The notes under the pieces: model-generated
Database searches by the model: none
Told to the model about the DNA's origin: nothing
The model's input: only the letters and a program-made list of their open reading frames with translations
Translations under genes and position numbers: made by a program
Virus record (IMG/VR): IMGVR_UViG_3300037153_000516
Coordinates: 1 to 48,169 of that record
DNA from: a virus
Strand: one strand, 5' to 3'
Length of the DNA stretch: 48,169 bases
In this document: positions 3,072 to 12,942 of the stretch, piece after piece
How the letters are laid out: each line of letters starts with the position of its first letter
Numbering within the stretch: position 1 is the first letter of the stretch

Positions 3072-3681
3072 TCGTATTGCGGCTCTTCCCGTCGACAGCG
3101 ACAGGCGGGTGCCGATCCCCTACTTTGTCGCGTGGAAGGACGGCAAGCCCGAGTTTCGCGCGATGGACCTCGACAAGTTCGGCCGCGCCATCAAGGAGCG
3201 CCGCTGCTGGGTGTGCGGCGAACGGCTGGGCGTCAATTTATGCTTCGTCGCCGGTCCCATGTGCGGCATCAGCCGCACCACGTCTGAACCGCCGTGCCAT
3301 CTGGAGTGCGGCCGCTGGTCCGCGCGCAACTGCCCGTTTCTGGCGAACCCGCGCATGGTGCGGCGCGAGGATGAGCAGCCGCTTAACGCCGCGGCGGGAT
3401 TCGCGATCCGCCGGAATCCAGGCGTCGCCATGCTCTGGATCACGCGCGAATTCGAGCTCTTCCGGCCGCCCGCCGGCAACGAAGGTTTGCTGATTCAGAT
3501 GGGCACGCCCGATTCGGTCGAATGGTGGGCCGAAGGCAAGCCGGCGACGCGGGAACAAGTGCTGCATTCCATCGACGAGGGTCTGTCGAACCTGGAAGCG
3601 ATCGCGCGGCAGGAGAAGGGCGGCCTGGAAGCTCTGGCGAACGCCCGCTCTCGGTTCGAGAAATGGATTCCGCAAAACTAA
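3025..3681 (+). CDS. Conserved Cys-rich phage protein
   Basis: A 218-residue soluble protein with a Cys-rich core: CWVCG (61-65), Cys73, Cys80, then CHLEC (91-95) and Cys103 in RNCPFL. The order RRCWVCG...GPMC...EPPCHLEC...ACPFL-like is recognisable from conserved hypotheticals in temperate phages of proteobacteria. It probably binds one or two zinc ions. The C-terminal 70 residues form a helical tail rich in Glu/Arg. CAGGAGA precedes the ATG. It follows the exonuclease, so a recombination or replication accessory role is possible but not shown. Confidence 0.75.
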   Translation: MSTETQLRPDLTPLPDRIAALPVDSDRRVPIPYFVAWKDGKPEFRAMDLDKFGRAIKERRCWVCGERLGVNLCFVAGPMCGISRTTSEPPCHLECGRWSARNCPFLANPRMVRREDEQPLNAAAGFAIRRNPGVAMLWITREFELFRPPAGNEGLLIQMGTPDSVEWWAEGKPATREQVLHSIDEGLSNLEAIARQEKGGLEALANARSRFEKWIPQN

Positions 3682-3736
3682 CAAGCCGTCCACGGGACGG
3701 CGCCGATCCACAACCCGAAACAAAGGAGACACACAA

Positions 3737-4144
3737 GTGACTGAATATCCATCCGGCGTCTTGCAGAATGTCGCCGCTCCCGGCAAGCCGGCCGACTTAC
3801 AGCCCGTCAACCAGGCCAACTGGAAGTGGTTCAGCACCCAGGCCGACGCCGATACGACGCTCGGCTGGGTGAAAGCTCTCTCGCCCGGCGCGCAGATGGG
3901 CGACGCGACTAAAGGCCAATATTCGCAGTACGTGTATTTCGACCAGACCGACCCCGACGTGTGCGTGCGCGTCATCTGCGGGATGGAGGACGGCCTGTTC
4001 TTCGTCGAATACGCCGGCGAACTTTTCGACGCGCATGAAAATCCGCGGCCGTTTATCGACGACTATCCCGACGGCGAGACGCCGACGCAGTTGAAAATCA
4101 TGCAGATCACGCCGCAGCTCGGGCAGCTGTATTGGGCGGCTTAG
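3737..4144 (+). CDS. Hypothetical protein (GTG start)
   Basis: A 135-residue acidic protein with no recognised domain. It starts at GTG with AAGGAG 9-10 bases upstream. Residues 25-45 are Trp/Gln-rich, and the middle (YVYFDQTDPDVCVRVICG, about 69-86) looks like paired beta strands. No signal peptide or membrane segment is seen. It is part of the run of small genes between the recombination pair and parB. The function is unknown. Confidence 0.65.
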   Translation: MTEYPSGVLQNVAAPGKPADLQPVNQANWKWFSTQADADTTLGWVKALSPGAQMGDATKGQYSQYVYFDQTDPDVCVRVICGMEDGLFFVEYAGELFDAHENPRPFIDDYPDGETPTQLKIMQITPQLGQLYWAA

Positions 4145-4148
4145 AAGT

Positions 4149-4385
4149 GTGCGGATTTACCAAGTGGGCGAGCGAGTGCTGTTTTACGGAAGACCGTCGA
4201 CGGTGGTCTACGCGAGCCCACCGCACCGTTACTGGCCGCGATGGACCTATGACGTCGTCATCGACGGCGATGGCTTGCATGGACCGACGGAGCTGGCGCG
4301 CACGGCCATCGGCGTGCGCGGCGAGGAACTCGAACCGCTGGAAGAAAGGAGAGAGGCAGATGCCCAGAGAAAAACGGACCTTTGA
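4149..4385 (+). CDS. Hypothetical protein, possible SH3-like fold
   Basis: A 78-residue protein with a GTG start four bases after the previous stop. The N-terminal half (VGERVLFYGRPSTVVYASPP, then YDVVIDGDG) has the alternating beta pattern of small SH3/KOW-like barrels, as in other phage proteins with a GxxVxxxGxxxxV opening. The C-terminus is charged and overlaps the next gene by 26 bp. The fold is inferred from pattern only and the role is unknown. Confidence 0.55.
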   Translation: MRIYQVGERVLFYGRPSTVVYASPPHRYWPRWTYDVVIDGDGLHGPTELARTAIGVRGEELEPLEERREADAQRKTDL

Positions 4386-4722
4386 GGATGTCCGGTATGA
4401 CTTTGATGAGACCGAGCTGCTCGCGCTCGGCCAGGAGCTCGCGCGGGTCAACCAGGCGCAAGCTGACCTGGAGCGGGAAAAGAAGGATGCCTCGGCCGAC
4501 TTCGGGGCCCGTATCAAGGCGGTTGATGCCCGCCGCAGCAGGCTCGCGCGCAAGATCAACGAAGGTTTTGAGCTTCGTCCGGTCGAATGCGTGGAGTTGC
4601 TCGACGCGCCGCGGCCTGGCGTCAAGAGCATCGCGCGCTCGGACACCGGCCAGGTGATCCGCACCGAAGCGATGACCGAGGAAGAGCAGCAGCGGTCGCT
4701 GCCATTCGAGGTAGAGCGATGA
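4360..4722 (+). CDS. Coiled-coil hypothetical protein
   Basis: A 120-residue highly charged protein. Residues about 20-70 (ELARVNQAQADLEREKKD and on) have heptad spacing consistent with a dimeric coiled coil. Then come a short beta stretch, VECVELLDAPRPGVKSI, and an acidic tail. AAAGGAGAG precedes the ATG. It overlaps the gene before by 26 bp and the next start by 4 bp. The function is unknown; similar helical-hairpin proteins occur in early regions of proteobacterial phages. Confidence 0.65.
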   Translation: MPREKRTFEDVRYDFDETELLALGQELARVNQAQADLEREKKDASADFGARIKAVDARRSRLARKINEGFELRPVECVELLDAPRPGVKSIARSDTGQVIRTEAMTEEEQQRSLPFEVER

Positions 4723-4976
4723 ATCCCTCCGTAAATCCGCCGCGCGGCAAGCGGTATTACGAGAAAGGCATTCAGGCGGCCAAGCTCGCGTTTTCGATCG
4801 CGGCCGACATCTATCCGCGCAAGCCGGGTACGAACATCATCAGCCAGCTCGGCGTCGATGCTGCGCTTTTCGACGAGGCGCACGCCATGCTCGAGCGGTT
4901 CCTCGAGGACAAGCGCCGGCCGCGGCGCTCGGCGGCCGCGCCCAACGGCGCGGCGGAGTCGCGCGATGCCTCTTGA
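4719..4976 (+). CDS. Hypothetical protein
   Basis: An 85-residue basic protein. The N-terminal GKRYYEKGIQAAKLAFSIA and the middle DAALFDEAHAMLERFLED form two predicted helices. The tail is Arg/Ala-rich. No motif is recognised. It overlaps the previous gene by 4 bp and the next by 11 bp, which supports real coupled translation. Confidence 0.55.
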   Translation: MNPSVNPPRGKRYYEKGIQAAKLAFSIAADIYPRKPGTNIISQLGVDAALFDEAHAMLERFLEDKRRPRRSAAAPNGAAESRDAS

Positions 4977-5163
4977 AGCGGACTCGCGTCACTGGGAATG
5001 TTCGGGAGGCCTCGGCTATTCCGCCGGCTACGTCTATTCCCGGCACGTCTGCCTCATCGCGATCGCGGCCGAGCTGCGCCAGGCGCGCGGGCCGAGTTGG
5101 GTGCGGGTTTGCTTCGAGCGAGTTCGAAAGTGGCTTCCGAGGATCGCGAAAGCCAATGGATGA
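4966..5163 (+). CDS. Hypothetical protein
   Basis: A 65-residue protein with aromatic and basic content (SRHWECSGGLGYSAGYVY at about 6-23, then a basic helix). No recognised domain. Overlaps on both sides (11 bp with the gene before, 8 bp with parB) and a codon-sized fit into the operon are the main evidence. Alternative frames across this segment are open too, so confidence is moderate. Confidence 0.45.
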   Translation: MPLEADSRHWECSGGLGYSAGYVYSRHVCLIAIAAELRQARGPSWVRVCFERVRKWLPRIAKANG

Positions 5164-5992
5164 AACAGCAGTCATGGTCGTAGACATCACGCGGCGGGGC
5201 GAATTCGCGCTTCCCCTCACTGATGCGCGGCGGCTTTCGCTTCACCCCTACTGCCTCTGGTTTCCAGCGTTAGACGCTACCGACTATGAAAGCTTGGGAG
5301 ACAGCATTCAATCGCAAGGATTGCTCGATCCAATCGTCCTTCTGGACGGCCAGGTCTTCGACGGGCGCCACCGTCTCAAGGCTTGTCTGGAGCGCGACGT
5401 CGAGCCGCGCTTTTCAAACTTCGAGCAGCTTCCCTGTCAAGTCGATCCCGTCGAGTGGGTGCTGGCCAAAAATCAATATCGCAGACACCTGACGAGCGAC
5501 CAGTTTCTGGCCATTGGAATCAAGGTTCGGGCGGAACAAGCGCGGCTGGAGGGATTGAAGCGGAAGCAGGAAGCAGGGAAGCAGGGCGCGCAGGGCGGAC
5601 GCGGGCGCAAGAAAACCCTGAACCCGAAATCAGGTTCAGGGTTTAAGCGGGATTTGACAGAGATGCACGCCAACAGCAGCGCGGGCCAGATCGCGGCGAA
5701 GACCGGGACCAGCCGCTACAAGGTGGAACAGGCCCTAAAAGTTCTAGAACGAGCTCCCGAGTTGCTCGACCGAATCGCGGCGGGCGATCTGTCTTTCGCT
5801 CAGGCGGAACGCACTCTTCCCAAGCCCAAGCGCAGGAAGAAGCCAGAGGCCGCCTGGGAGCTGGCCAGCAAACTAGCCGGCTGCTGCGCCTATCTCAAGC
5901 GAGCGTTCATGCAAGCGCCTTCCGCCCGGCAGAGCGCCAAGCTGCGTGAGCAACTGATCCAATGGCTAACCCAGGAGTCGCCCGATGCATGA
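5156..5992 (+). CDS. ParB-like DNA-binding protein
   Basis: A 278-residue protein with a ParB/Srx nuclease-like N-terminal domain. Residues about 40-80 hold the family pattern DSIQSQGLLDPIVLLDG followed by the phosphate-binding box GRHRLKA (70-76), and AKNQYRRHLT (104-113) ends the domain. A basic linker follows, then a helix-turn-helix at about 170-196 (SSAGQIAAKTGTSRYKVEQA). Such proteins bind DNA site-specifically in partition, transcription control or nicking. No ParA gene is nearby. Instead it overlaps a GHKL ATPase by 8 bp, so the two are probably made together. Its own coding sequence contains a perfect 12-bp-arm palindrome (5613-5644) in the linker region, a possible binding site. Confidence 0.8.
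   Translation: MDETAVMVVDITRRGEFALPLTDARRLSLHPYCLWFPALDATDYESLGDSIQSQGLLDPIVLLDGQVFDGRHRLKACLERDVEPRFSNFEQLPCQVDPVEWVLAKNQYRRHLTSDQFLAIGIKVRAEQARLEGLKRKQEAGKQGAQGGRGRKKTLNPKSGSGFKRDLTEMHANSSAGQIAAKTGTSRYKVEQALKVLERAPELLDRIAAGDLSFAQAERTLPKPKRRKKPEAAWELASKLAGCCAYLKRAFMQAPSARQSAKLREQLIQWLTQESPDA
5613..5644. repeat. Perfect inverted repeat inside parB-like gene
   Basis: Arms AAACCCTGAACC (5613-5624) and GGTTCAGGGTTT (5633-5644) match perfectly around an 8-base centre. They encode part of the disordered linker (residues 153-163), where coding constraint is weak. The site could be a parS-like binding site for the ParB protein, an operator, or an mRNA hairpin that attenuates the operon. Confidence 0.65.
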
Positions 5993-7397
5993 CGAAAACC
6001 AAGACGAATACATGGACTGCGTTCCGGAGCCGCGGATTCTCGAAGGATTGAGAAGCCTCGACATGCCGAACATATACATTTTGGGCGAATTCATGGACAA
6101 CTCGTGGGACTGGGGAAGCACCAAAATCGTCGTATCGTTTGAAGCCAACGCGCTCACCATCGAGGACGACGGAGCGGGGTGCATCGACATGCAGAGGCTG
6201 CTGACGCTTGGCAAGTATCTGGGCGCGGGCCGGACGGGCCGGTTCGGATTGGGCCTCAAACAGGCCAGTTATACGCTTGGGCCGGAACTCCACATTGAAT
6301 CCGCGAGCGGCGATAAGCGCGTCGTCTATGACGTGAACTGGCCAGATTTCACTTGGAGGATGCCGAAGCCCAAACTGGTCGACTGCGCCGGCCCGTCGTT
6401 TATGCGTTTAAGAGTGGGCAACGCAGATGTCAAACGCTTGGCTAAGATGCAAACCACAGACCTACGCGACCGGCTGCGCTTGACGTACTATCCGGCGCTC
6501 AAAGCGGGCCGGTCGATTATTTACGGCGGGCATGCCCTTTCGCCCGTCGATTTCCCCGAGCTTTCGCTGAAATTGAGGCGAACGGACAGTTTCCAAGGAG
6601 GACGTTACAACCTCACCGCCGGATTGTTTCGGTCGCCTCAGAAGACTTGGCCTCACGGATTCAACATAGCTTTTCGGGACCGACTGATGGTCGCCGGAAT
6701 GAAGGACGTCTACGGCGACTACGATCCTCACGGCTTCTTCGCTTACTTGGAGCTGATCGAAGACTCCGATTCCCATTGGAATCTGAACCTCAACAAAAAC
6801 GGAATCGAGAACCAGGTCGATTTAGCGGAGTCGCTTTTCCCCGTAATCGAGCCGCTTCTAAAGCGTGCCCAACAGCGACACGAGGACGTTCATGATCGCG
6901 AATTGATTTCCAAGATCGAGGCGCAATTGAACGCGGCCCTAGGAGGGAGGCCCCGAAAGGCGAAGAGGCAAAGCCCAACAACGAAGGGCAGCGAAAGAAA
7001 GAAGCCAGAGAGGCGAGGCGGCCAGCATCAGCACGCTGCACGAGTGCAATCCGGCAACGGAAACATCTCCACTGATTGCGATGCCGGCACAGGCGGGAAC
7101 TGTACGGGATATCGGATCTCTTTCAATCACGAAGGTCCAGAAATCGCGTCCGTCGATCTAGGTGCTAAGCAAACCTTCGTGCGCTTTTTTGTCCGCCATC
7201 CGGCTGTCTCCCAATGGAGGCGCGGACAAGAGCATCGCGAACTATTCGTCCACGCGTATGGCTTGATACTCGCCAAGCAGCGGATGCATCGACCGGGCCA
7301 GCAGATGGCGCTGGACTATTCCGGCGAAGATCCGTTTCAGGACTACGTCGAAAAGCTCAGCGTCTCGGCCGCCCGGGCTTACGAAAAGGTAGCGTGA
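5985..7397 (+). CDS. GHKL-fold ATPase (Hsp90/MORC/MutL-like)
   Basis: A 470-residue protein with a Bergerat ATP-binding fold. The N box is E35-x2-D38-N39-S40, the G1 box D61-x-G63-x-G65, and the G2 box GRTGRFGLGLK (82-92). After a helical/beta transducer region, N270-K271-N272 could supply the gamma-phosphate-sensing lysine of the S5-like domain. A basic disordered linker (about 320-370) leads to an unrelated C-terminal domain of about 100 residues. ATP probably closes an N-terminal dimer clamp, as in MORC and MutL. It has no His-kinase dimerisation box. It overlaps the ParB-like gene by 8 bp. I infer a two-part DNA-bound complex; the function is unknown. Confidence 0.8.
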   Translation: MHDENQDEYMDCVPEPRILEGLRSLDMPNIYILGEFMDNSWDWGSTKIVVSFEANALTIEDDGAGCIDMQRLLTLGKYLGAGRTGRFGLGLKQASYTLGPELHIESASGDKRVVYDVNWPDFTWRMPKPKLVDCAGPSFMRLRVGNADVKRLAKMQTTDLRDRLRLTYYPALKAGRSIIYGGHALSPVDFPELSLKLRRTDSFQGGRYNLTAGLFRSPQKTWPHGFNIAFRDRLMVAGMKDVYGDYDPHGFFAYLELIEDSDSHWNLNLNKNGIENQVDLAESLFPVIEPLLKRAQQRHEDVHDRELISKIEAQLNAALGGRPRKAKRQSPTTKGSERKKPERRGGQHQHAARVQSGNGNISTDCDAGTGGNCTGYRISFNHEGPEIASVDLGAKQTFVRFFVRHPAVSQWRRGQEHRELFVHAYGLILAKQRMHRPGQQMALDYSGEDPFQDYVEKLSVSAARAYEKVA

Positions 7398-9507: not shown

Positions 9508-10200
9508 ATGAGCGCCGCGCTCGTTCCTCATCCCCATATCGATACGGCGCACGCGGAGCTCCCCGCCAAGTACCAAGCCGCGAAAAGCGCTATCGCCATT
9601 TGCGAGCGGATCGATGAATGCCAGGACTGGGCTGACAAAGCGGCCGCGCTCGCCAGCTATGCCAAACAAGCGAAGGACGACGAGCTGGTGCGGATGGCGA
9701 CGCGCATCCAACTGCGAGCGGTGCGGCGCTGCGGGGAGCTCCTGAAGGCGATCGCGCCAGGGAAACCAGGACCGAAGGAAATCTGTACCGGCAGCGGTAT
9801 AGATTTATCCCGTACTCAAGCTGCCGCCGACGCTGGCCTCTCGAAGCGCCAGAAGGACACCGCGCTGCGGGTGGCCGCGATCCCCGAAGAGGAGTTTGAG
9901 TTGACGGTCGAATCGGCCAGTCCGACCGTCACCGAGATGGCCGAGCGCGGCACGCGCAAAGCGCCGATCATCGATCTACTCGAACATCGAGATCCCAAAG
10001 AATTCCAAGCCGCGACGTATTTCCAGGGCTCGATGAGCGATCTCGCTCAATGGCTCCGCAGCGTCGATCCCGCGGCGGTGATGCGCGGATCGCGCCCTAA
10101 CGAACTTCCACGCTTAATGCTCGAAATTGCAGTGATCGAAGGCTGGCTTTCCCAATTCAAGGAGGCGGTGAATGCTTTCTCAGAAAGAACTGCTCGATGA
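9508..10200 (+). CDS. Conserved phage hypothetical protein (helical)
   Basis: A 230-residue, mainly helical protein. Residues about 40-90 (ADKAAALASYAKQAKDDEL, then RIQLRAVRRCGELLKAI) match a family of conserved hypotheticals in proteobacterial prophages and integrative elements, often near replication or ParB genes. Residues about 110-150 (SRTQAAADAGLSKRQKDTAL) resemble a helix-turn-helix, so DNA binding is likely. The start lies 83 bp after the integrase. It overlaps the next gene by 29 bp, which has its own AAGGAGG site. Confidence 0.7.
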   Translation: MSAALVPHPHIDTAHAELPAKYQAAKSAIAICERIDECQDWADKAAALASYAKQAKDDELVRMATRIQLRAVRRCGELLKAIAPGKPGPKEICTGSGIDLSRTQAAADAGLSKRQKDTALRVAAIPEEEFELTVESASPTVTEMAERGTRKAPIIDLLEHRDPKEFQAATYFQGSMSDLAQWLRSVDPAAVMRGSRPNELPRLMLEIAVIEGWLSQFKEAVNAFSERTAR

Positions 10201-12069: not shown

Positions 12070-12942
12070 ATGTCACTTTCATCTTACGCGAAATTTTATG
12101 ACGTGCTGATGAGTTCCCGCGCGCTGCCGGCGAGCGCAAAGCTGGTTTTGACCGCCCTCGTTAATTTCAGCCGACTCGGAAACCGCAATCCCAAAGTAGA
12201 AACGCTCGCTCTGAAGACCGGACAGACGCTTCGCACCACCGAGCGCGCTCTCCAAGCGCTTCGCGAACTGAAACTCATCACGACGACTTGGGGCCAGCGC
12301 CAGAGTAGTTACGAAATTACCCCGCTCGAGAGCTGGCCCTATCTCCTGAACCGCCAAAGTGGCGGAACAGGATCTGGTTTCTGTTCCGCCAATATGGCGG
12401 ATCTGAACCGCCAAAGTGGCGGAACAGAACCTTCCGCATCCTTATTACTTAAAAGAACTATTAAAAGAAGGGGTTTTCAAGAGAGATTTAGAGATAACTA
12501 TTCGCGCGCGCGCGAGGCCGCCCAGAAAAGCACTCTCTCGCCTCCCTTGCCTGCGCCCGCTCCCGATCCGCCGCCGACCATCCCCTGGCTCGATCCGCTG
12601 ATGGCCCAGATGGGGGATATCTACCGCCGCGCAGGCCTGCCGATCGCCGCCAAGCAGGACCAACTTATCCGTCAGCTCATCATCGGCCTCGAGGAGCACA
12701 CGCGCTCACGCGTTCCCGAACGCCTGCCTCGTTACTGCATGTGGGCTCTCGCCGTCGGGCGCTGGCCTTCCGCCGCCAAAACCAAAGCTCTCGTCAACGT
12801 GCTCCGCGACGGTGACTGGGATGTTGAACTCGCCGTACGGAGTTTACCTCCCGCCTCGGCGGACTCTCCCCGCGCGGCCGTCGTGGCGGCGGCCGAACAC
12901 CGATTCATGGAAAGGCAAAAAAGCAAATATGGAGCCTTCTAA
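12070..12942 (+). CDS. Replication initiator-like protein with N-terminal winged HTH
   Basis: A 290-residue protein. Residues 1-85 form a winged helix-turn-helix as in phage replication O-type and Gram-negative plasmid initiators: ASAKLVLTALVNFSR, then TLALKTGQTLRTTERALQAL and a wing at about 72-82. Residues about 93-120 repeat the peptide NRQSGGT twice. This is the protein face of iteron-like DNA repeats, followed by Lys/Arg-rich and Pro-rich linkers, and a helical C-terminal domain from about 175. In lambda, gene O carries the origin iterons inside the same kind of linker. AAGAAGG precedes the ATG. It probably loads the host helicase. Confidence 0.75.
   Translation: MSLSSYAKFYDVLMSSRALPASAKLVLTALVNFSRLGNRNPKVETLALKTGQTLRTTERALQALRELKLITTTWGQRQSSYEITPLESWPYLLNRQSGGTGSGFCSANMADLNRQSGGTEPSASLLLKRTIKRRGFQERFRDNYSRAREAAQKSTLSPPLPAPAPDPPPTIPWLDPLMAQMGDIYRRAGLPIAAKQDQLIRQLIIGLEEHTRSRVPERLPRYCMWALAVGRWPSAAKTKALVNVLRDGDWDVELAVRSLPPASADSPRAAVVAAAEHRFMERQKSKYGAF
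12346..12505. other. Probable replication origin inside initiator gene
   Basis: Two identical 25-bp units (12346-12370 and 12403-12427) and one inverted variant (about 12381-12405) each centre on the dyad CCGCC-N5-GGCGG at 12351-12365, 12386-12400 and 12408-12422. Directly downstream lies an AT-rich stretch, about 12428-12505 (TTATTACTTAAAAG, ATTAAAAGAAG, TTTAGAGATAACTATT), unusual for this GC-rich genome. Iterons followed by an AT-rich unwinding tract within the initiator coding sequence is the arrangement of the lambda origin. Confidence 0.75.

Follow-up and report, generated by a model that had tools for sequence, protein, structure and literature searches.

The ParB-like protein and the GHKL ATPase that are encoded by two overlapping genes of this viral genome form a real module, which recurs in unrelated phages. 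The window, i.e. the whole stretch of 48,169 nucleotides that was analysed (IMG/VR record IMGVR_UViG_3300037153_000516, positions 1 to 48,169), carries the pair, which had been put forward in a first-pass annotation as a candidate undescribed system to be looked for in other phages. It does co-occur elsewhere, being directly adjacent in at least six phage lineages, in two gene orders and in both search directions. The individual parts are of familiar kinds, and the pair is apparently undescribed as had been supposed: no description was found in the literature searched (subscription literature lying outside it), and a 2025 survey of the ParB-CTPase fold does not mention GHKL, MORC or HATPase (PMC12704722). 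GHKL ATPases are an added partner class for ParB-fold proteins, of which we found no earlier report.

In the window, the gene of the ParB-like partner or adaptor (278 aa; 5156..5992, plus strand) extends from an ATG at 5156 to a TGA at 5992. The GHKL ATPase gene (470 aa; 5985..7397, same strand) starts with an ATG at 5985 and is supported by its PF13589 match and its homologues. Both ORFs and the exact 8 bp overlap (5985–5992) given in the first-pass annotation were confirmed, and an AGGAG lies around 7 nt 5′ of the GHKL ATG, within the ParB-like gene. The pair has a GC content of 57.9 %, versus 62–63 % in the adjoining stretches, with ERF and YqaJ recombination genes just 5′ and a serine integrase 361 bp 3′; a GpA-type terminase is also encoded by this phage. 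No ORF of the window contains a ParA-type Walker motif, in agreement with the earlier statement that no ParA is near.

From the GHKL side, relatives were sought by tblastn against 50,697 phage records and by motif-based DNA patterns in IMG/VR. The tblastn search matched one phage, mycobacteriophage Bobby, in which gene 96 encodes the GHKL homologue and gene 95, directly 5′, a ParB/Srx plus HTH protein. Among the IMG/VR records, the ParB-like gene lies directly 5′ of the GHKL gene in the L092/L097/L098/L106-L108/L113 group, the order is reversed in L073 (GHKL then ParB, with a 4 bp overlap), and the overlapping 5′ gene of L080 and L094 encodes a different, unannotated protein of 212–239 aa. A DUF3102-like identity of the latter was rejected, as it gave no Pfam match. 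The GHKL homologues found align over most of their length, and in each of the six lineages a partner gene abuts that of the ATPase, with a ParB-like partner in four of them (the window, Bobby gp95–gp96, L073 and the L092 group). While several branches are weak in the GHKL tree, L080 and L094 group with Bobby (support 96/97), which implies a replacement of the partner inside the Bobby/L080/L094 clade.

For the search from the ParB side, the N-x-x-R-R-H-L-T box served as pattern and returned at least 120 stretches, with at least 111 ORFs confirmed by a ParB profile. Among the matches listed, the surroundings of the 111 ParB genes, around 1.0 Mb in total, contain this GHKL gene three times, and in all three cases the two genes abut (3–7 bp), the other 108 ParB genes having other neighbours. 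L073 reappeared among the three, the new lineages being L135 (GHKL then ParB) and L206 (ParB then GHKL). Since the L135 ATPase carries ELVDNG/DNG instead of EFxDNS/DDG, the GHKL motif pattern could not have found it. As a control, 933 ORFs around related terminases included no GHKL-family and five ParB-like members (0.5 %); considering that this set is biased to late regions and that the ParB figures come from the matches listed, the comparison shows enrichment rather than exact rates.

No GHKL gene was found in 30 terminase-related records, many of them fragments and searched without a positive control, and two of the 30 harbour a related ParB gene whose partners differ. Peptide patterns taken directly from the window proteins retrieved no relatives from viral and genome contigs, whereas motif-based DNA patterns succeeded. 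Two-sequence alignment also retrieved none, and a three-box pattern gave no match in bacterial genome contigs, which has no bearing on occurrence in bacterial chromosomes.

The GHKL protein matches HATPase_c_3 (PF13589, E=7e-9) above the curated cut-off. Its N box EFMDNS (aa 35–40; 6087..6104), G1 box DDGAG (aa 61–65; 6165..6179) and G2 box GLGLK (aa 88–92; 6246..6260), all on the plus strand, are intact as initially described. E35, D38, N39, D61, G63, G65, G88, G90, R233 and K271 are identical in 11 of 11 aligned phage homologues, while the final Lys of the G2 box is lost in the L092 group. By analogy, E35 would be the catalytic base and N39 the Mg ligand. The Lys said to occupy an S5-like place is K271 (codon 6795–6797), which together with R233 falls into a predicted S5-type (transducer) domain (aa ~195–275; 6567..6809, plus strand); an S5-type fold is present in the model of the L073 homologue (pLDDT 73), which consists of a GHKL domain, an S5-type domain, a long helix, a disordered linker and a C-terminal domain. 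The model of the window protein (pLDDT 59) is poor beyond the ATPase domain, the S5 region being of low confidence. Strands followed by two helices make up the predicted C-terminal domain (aa ~375–434; 7107..7286, plus strand; pLDDT ~70–84 in the models).

PDB matches of the L073 model include MORC3, MORC2, SMCHD1, Hsp90 and GyrB, and MORC2 is also the best PDB sequence match. In a library of predicted viral structures the best match was A0A481VXV4 (494 aa, the same length as Bobby gp96) with E=1.7e-30, the next best reaching 1.7e-14.

Judged by profile comparison, the GHKL protein sits in the MORC/paraMORC/MzaB branch and not in that of T4 rIIA. The family profile matched five paraMORC-type proteins with E-values of 1e-22 to 1e-12 (hhalign 99.4 %), the paraMORC/MzaB-type set being small, assembled for this analysis and compared over the ATPase domain, versus 4e-7 for MutL and no better than 9e-4 for rIIA. 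An rIIA HMM built from seven phages, in turn, matched the Hsp90 protein HtpG (E 6e-10), and the phage GHKL family only with E of at least 1.8. The closest NCBIfam models were MzaB and BbrUII, both far under their cut-offs (window protein against MzaB: 15.7 bits, cut-off 850; PADLOC E=0.044), and a PHROG search with the window protein gave no match. The original label ‘Hsp90/MORC-like’ is refined by the profile matches to the MORC/paraMORC/MzaB branch.

MORC/paraMORC proteins, as covered by the available part of Iyer 2008 (PMC2292703), are the closest by profile and share the GHKL plus S5 module, in which the motifs are intact, as well as a distinct domain at the C-terminus. The MORC S5 motif GhXhhpXXRhl given there is fitted by GFNIAFRDRLM of the window protein except for an F at the polar position, and its leading Gly is absent in L073, L080 and L094. 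The paraMORC neighbours named in the same part of that source are helicase, methylase and nuclease, with a ParB-like partner not described in it (PMC2292703). In contrast to paraMORC restriction-modification operons with their SFII helicase, nuclease or methylase neighbour, none of these abuts the window pair; among the phage pairs, no nuclease or methylase abuts and a helicase gene lies directly 3′ only in L073. In one IMG/VR contig (L111, 5330–9476), a large methyltransferase-like gene is directly followed by that of a paraMORC-type GHKL protein, an arrangement known from paraMORC restriction systems.

Among named NCBIfam families, several members come closest to MzaB of the MZA anti-phage system (L073 to E 4e-9), but the phage GHKL proteins stay far under its cut-off (35 versus 850 bits). 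Moreover, the MzaB-like protein of L114 adjoins a large Z1-type-helicase-like gene, whereas the phage cassettes have no such gene. The L114 protein (3286–7205 of MT835895.1) matches MzaB with E 3e-83; the record was deposited as a human faecal phage, and the locus may be a bacterial defence locus.

The nearest known analogue of the pair is T4 rIIA–rIIB, with relatives in many phages, again a phage GHKL ATPase gene beside the gene of an HTH protein, accessory and with divergent C-termini. However, rIIA is the larger protein, with 725 aa in T4, and of another GHKL branch, while the HTH of rIIB is N-terminal and the protein does not match ParB families. A divergent rIIA–rIIB pair sharing the same branch was rejected, since the profiles do not match each other's family. 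The rII system counters RexAB immunity in diverse and divergent phages (PMC11879866). With an established GHKL plus HTH-partner pair of this kind, the initial claim that such a pair has no established role in phages was too strong, yet rIIA represents a different GHKL branch.

The ParB-like protein comprises a ParB/Srx N-terminal domain with DGRHR and N-x-x-R-R-H-L-T boxes (aa ~38–118; 5267..5509), delimited by an alignment of seven relatives, a ParB-type HTH domain (aa 174–229; 5675..5842) and a C-terminal tail (5843..5989) placed by position after the equivalent tail in the L092 group, all on the plus strand. Its match to the ParB HTH model of Pfam (PF17762, E=0.0023) is under the cut-off and its TIGR00180 score is 16.9 versus a cut-off of 58.5; PHROG ParB-like families are matched to E=4e-10, and the closest solved relatives are ParB proteins (PDB chains, E ~0.001). 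ENxxR is the canonical ParB CTPase motif; in the alignment of seven relatives, its Glu is missing from the ParB-like protein and N and R are retained.

With canonical ParB of ParABS systems the protein shares the ParB/Srx domain and the ParB-type HTH (below the Pfam cut-off), but ParABS has ParA as partner, whereas the window pair has a GHKL ATPase instead. In ParB-methyltransferase phage fusions the methyltransferase is fused, whereas the partner here is a separate ATPase. One such fusion occurs in the terminase-related phage L071 (1348–2610), where a similar ParB/HTH gene has a fused MT-A70-like methyltransferase region; another terminase-related phage, L070 (1480–3179), carries a similar ParB/HTH gene beside a DGQHR-containing neighbour. 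In a second ParB-fold gene of the window phage itself (17905–19332), a ParB-N domain is joined to an N6/N4 DNA methyltransferase. A target site of the ParB-like protein was not found. The palindrome CCGCCANNNTGGCGG occurs three times at 12351–12422 (0.4 expected; three reached in 0 of 100 shuffles), inside an O-like replication initiator gene (12070–12942), and the three copies are probably iterons of the phage replication origin; as ParB sites they were set aside, replication iterons being likelier.

There are several indications that the pair behaves as a mobile accessory cassette, which is the interpretation we favour. Bobby genes 93–97, pair included, form an insert of around 3.49 kb that is absent from the sibling phage Dove, the flanks being 96.7 % and 96.9 % identical to Dove, for which alone a clean empty site was aligned. 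The wider Bobby region is matched by 52 mycobacteriophage records, while the GHKL protein was matched only in Bobby in the protein search. The pair of Bobby lies in an early operon beside the immunity repressor and that of L135 between terminase and portal. Together with these locations, the reversible gene order, the replaceable partner and the lower GC content of the window pair argue for such a cassette. One related pair is under purifying selection, as the dN/dS values between L092 and L098 are 0.064 for the GHKL gene and 0.24 for the ParB gene.

The ParB–GHKL modules of L092/L098/L106-L108/L113 are mosaic, with recurrent junctions at the ParB linker/tail boundary. Between L098 and L108, the ParB N-domain is 97 % identical, the linker 100 % and the tail 43 %, while GHKL aa 1–190 are 51 % and the remainder 90–92 % identical; between L110 and L098, the tails are identical and the ATPase domains 99 % identical, with the linker at 65 %. 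Therefore, the ParB tail travels with the GHKL ATPase domain in the L092 group. This co-exchange suggests a contact between tail and ATPase domain, but one tract over adjacent DNA yields it equally well.

Considering that the GHKL clamp always comes with an adjacent partner, mostly of a DNA-binding fold, it is best read as being loaded or targeted by that partner. The reading to which we lean, although tentatively, is a two-gene accessory cassette in which the ParB-like protein would act as the loader of a MORC-type clamp on DNA in phage–host or phage–phage conflict. The ParB-like protein would bind DNA through its ParB/Srx and HTH domains, its sites lying probably in the DNA of the phage or of an invader, and its C-terminal tail would dock on the ATPase domain at the N-terminus of the GHKL protein. 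On binding ATP, the GHKL dimer would then close round the DNA as a MORC/MutL-type clamp, and the closed clamp might bridge, compact or block DNA, as MORC2 compacts it (PMC12216690), or recruit further factors, until ATP hydrolysis (E35, K271) resets it. We infer DNA loading, tail–ATPase contact and clamp closure, as well as conflict as the likeliest use, in which the pair would either protect against host or prophage immunity or impose it, much as T4 rIIA–rIIB does in counter-defence or MZA in bacteria. A conflict role is favoured by the analogy with rIIA–rIIB countering RexAB and by the accessory nature of the pair.

A bolder and more doubtful version is a two-clamp machine, in which a nucleotide-switched ParB-fold protein would load a MORC-type ATP clamp at specific sites, the whole being a device dedicated to phage immunity or counter-immunity. 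If so, two unrelated DNA-clamping ATP/CTP folds would work in series, in a phage parallel to rII and possibly a simple relative of eukaryotic MORC silencers. Little is understood of the MORC-like ATPases of bacteria and phages, and decades of work have not made clear what T4 rII does; with Bobby gp95–gp96 in the tractable host Mycobacterium smegmatis, both MORC-clamp loading and an immunity role become testable.

Somewhat unlikely, in our estimate, is an auxiliary of recombination or replication, with the GHKL protein acting like MutL and coupling a DNA-binding matchmaker to an exonuclease, annealing protein or helicase of the phage. One of the nearer GHKL relatives is indeed MutL, and besides ERF and YqaJ of the window, Sak4, SSB and helicase genes accompany the pair in L073, a Gp2.5-like annealing protein is found in the L092 group and L113, and a RecE-like exonuclease in L094. 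With several lineages near annealing genes, a DNA-processing role stays compatible with the data. However, genes of this sort generally abound in the early regions of phages, and the L135 location between terminase and portal does not fit, nor does an accessory insert which Dove lacks and which no other phage of the collection matched in the protein search. The terminase-related records without a relative, with the reservation that many are fragments searched without a positive control, also point away from this role.

In eukaryotes, MORC proteins compact or loop DNA in silencing. Silencing or transcription control by the phage pair, with a ParB/HTH repressor and a MORC-like ATPase compacting or looping DNA round its sites, is in our view unlikely. 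It would agree with the structure comparison, where MORC2 and MORC3 rank among the best matches, with MORC2 as the top match by sequence, with the position of the pair beside the immunity repressor in Bobby and beside the integrase in the window, and with rIIB orthologues being regarded as transcription factors (PMC7824862). Against this, no operator-like repeat was seen in the vicinity of the pair, clear iterons (12351–12422) being present only inside the O-like replication gene, and the terminase–portal location in L135 speaks against it as well.

Plasmid-like partition with the GHKL protein replacing ParA, a role envisaged in the first-pass annotation, was not borne out and is highly improbable: a ParB-type protein with an HTH in a window lacking ParA would suit it, but the phage encodes a serine integrase, there is no parS-like array, relatives occupy accessory slots, members of the GHKL family also occur with partners other than ParB (L080, L094), and ParA motors belong to another class of ATPases than GHKL. 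That two unrelated accessory genes lie side by side by coincidence is hardly credible, for although phage early regions are mosaic and 108 of 111 ParB genes among the matches listed have other neighbours, adjacency in at least six lineages, two orders and both search directions stands against control rates of 0.5 % or lower.

In the window, the gene at 9508–10200, around 80 bp 3′ of the integrase, matches phrog_33995 (E 4e-50), a family of unknown function, and shows a weak match to an AbiEi antitoxin C-terminal domain (E 3e-4), just under the cut-off.
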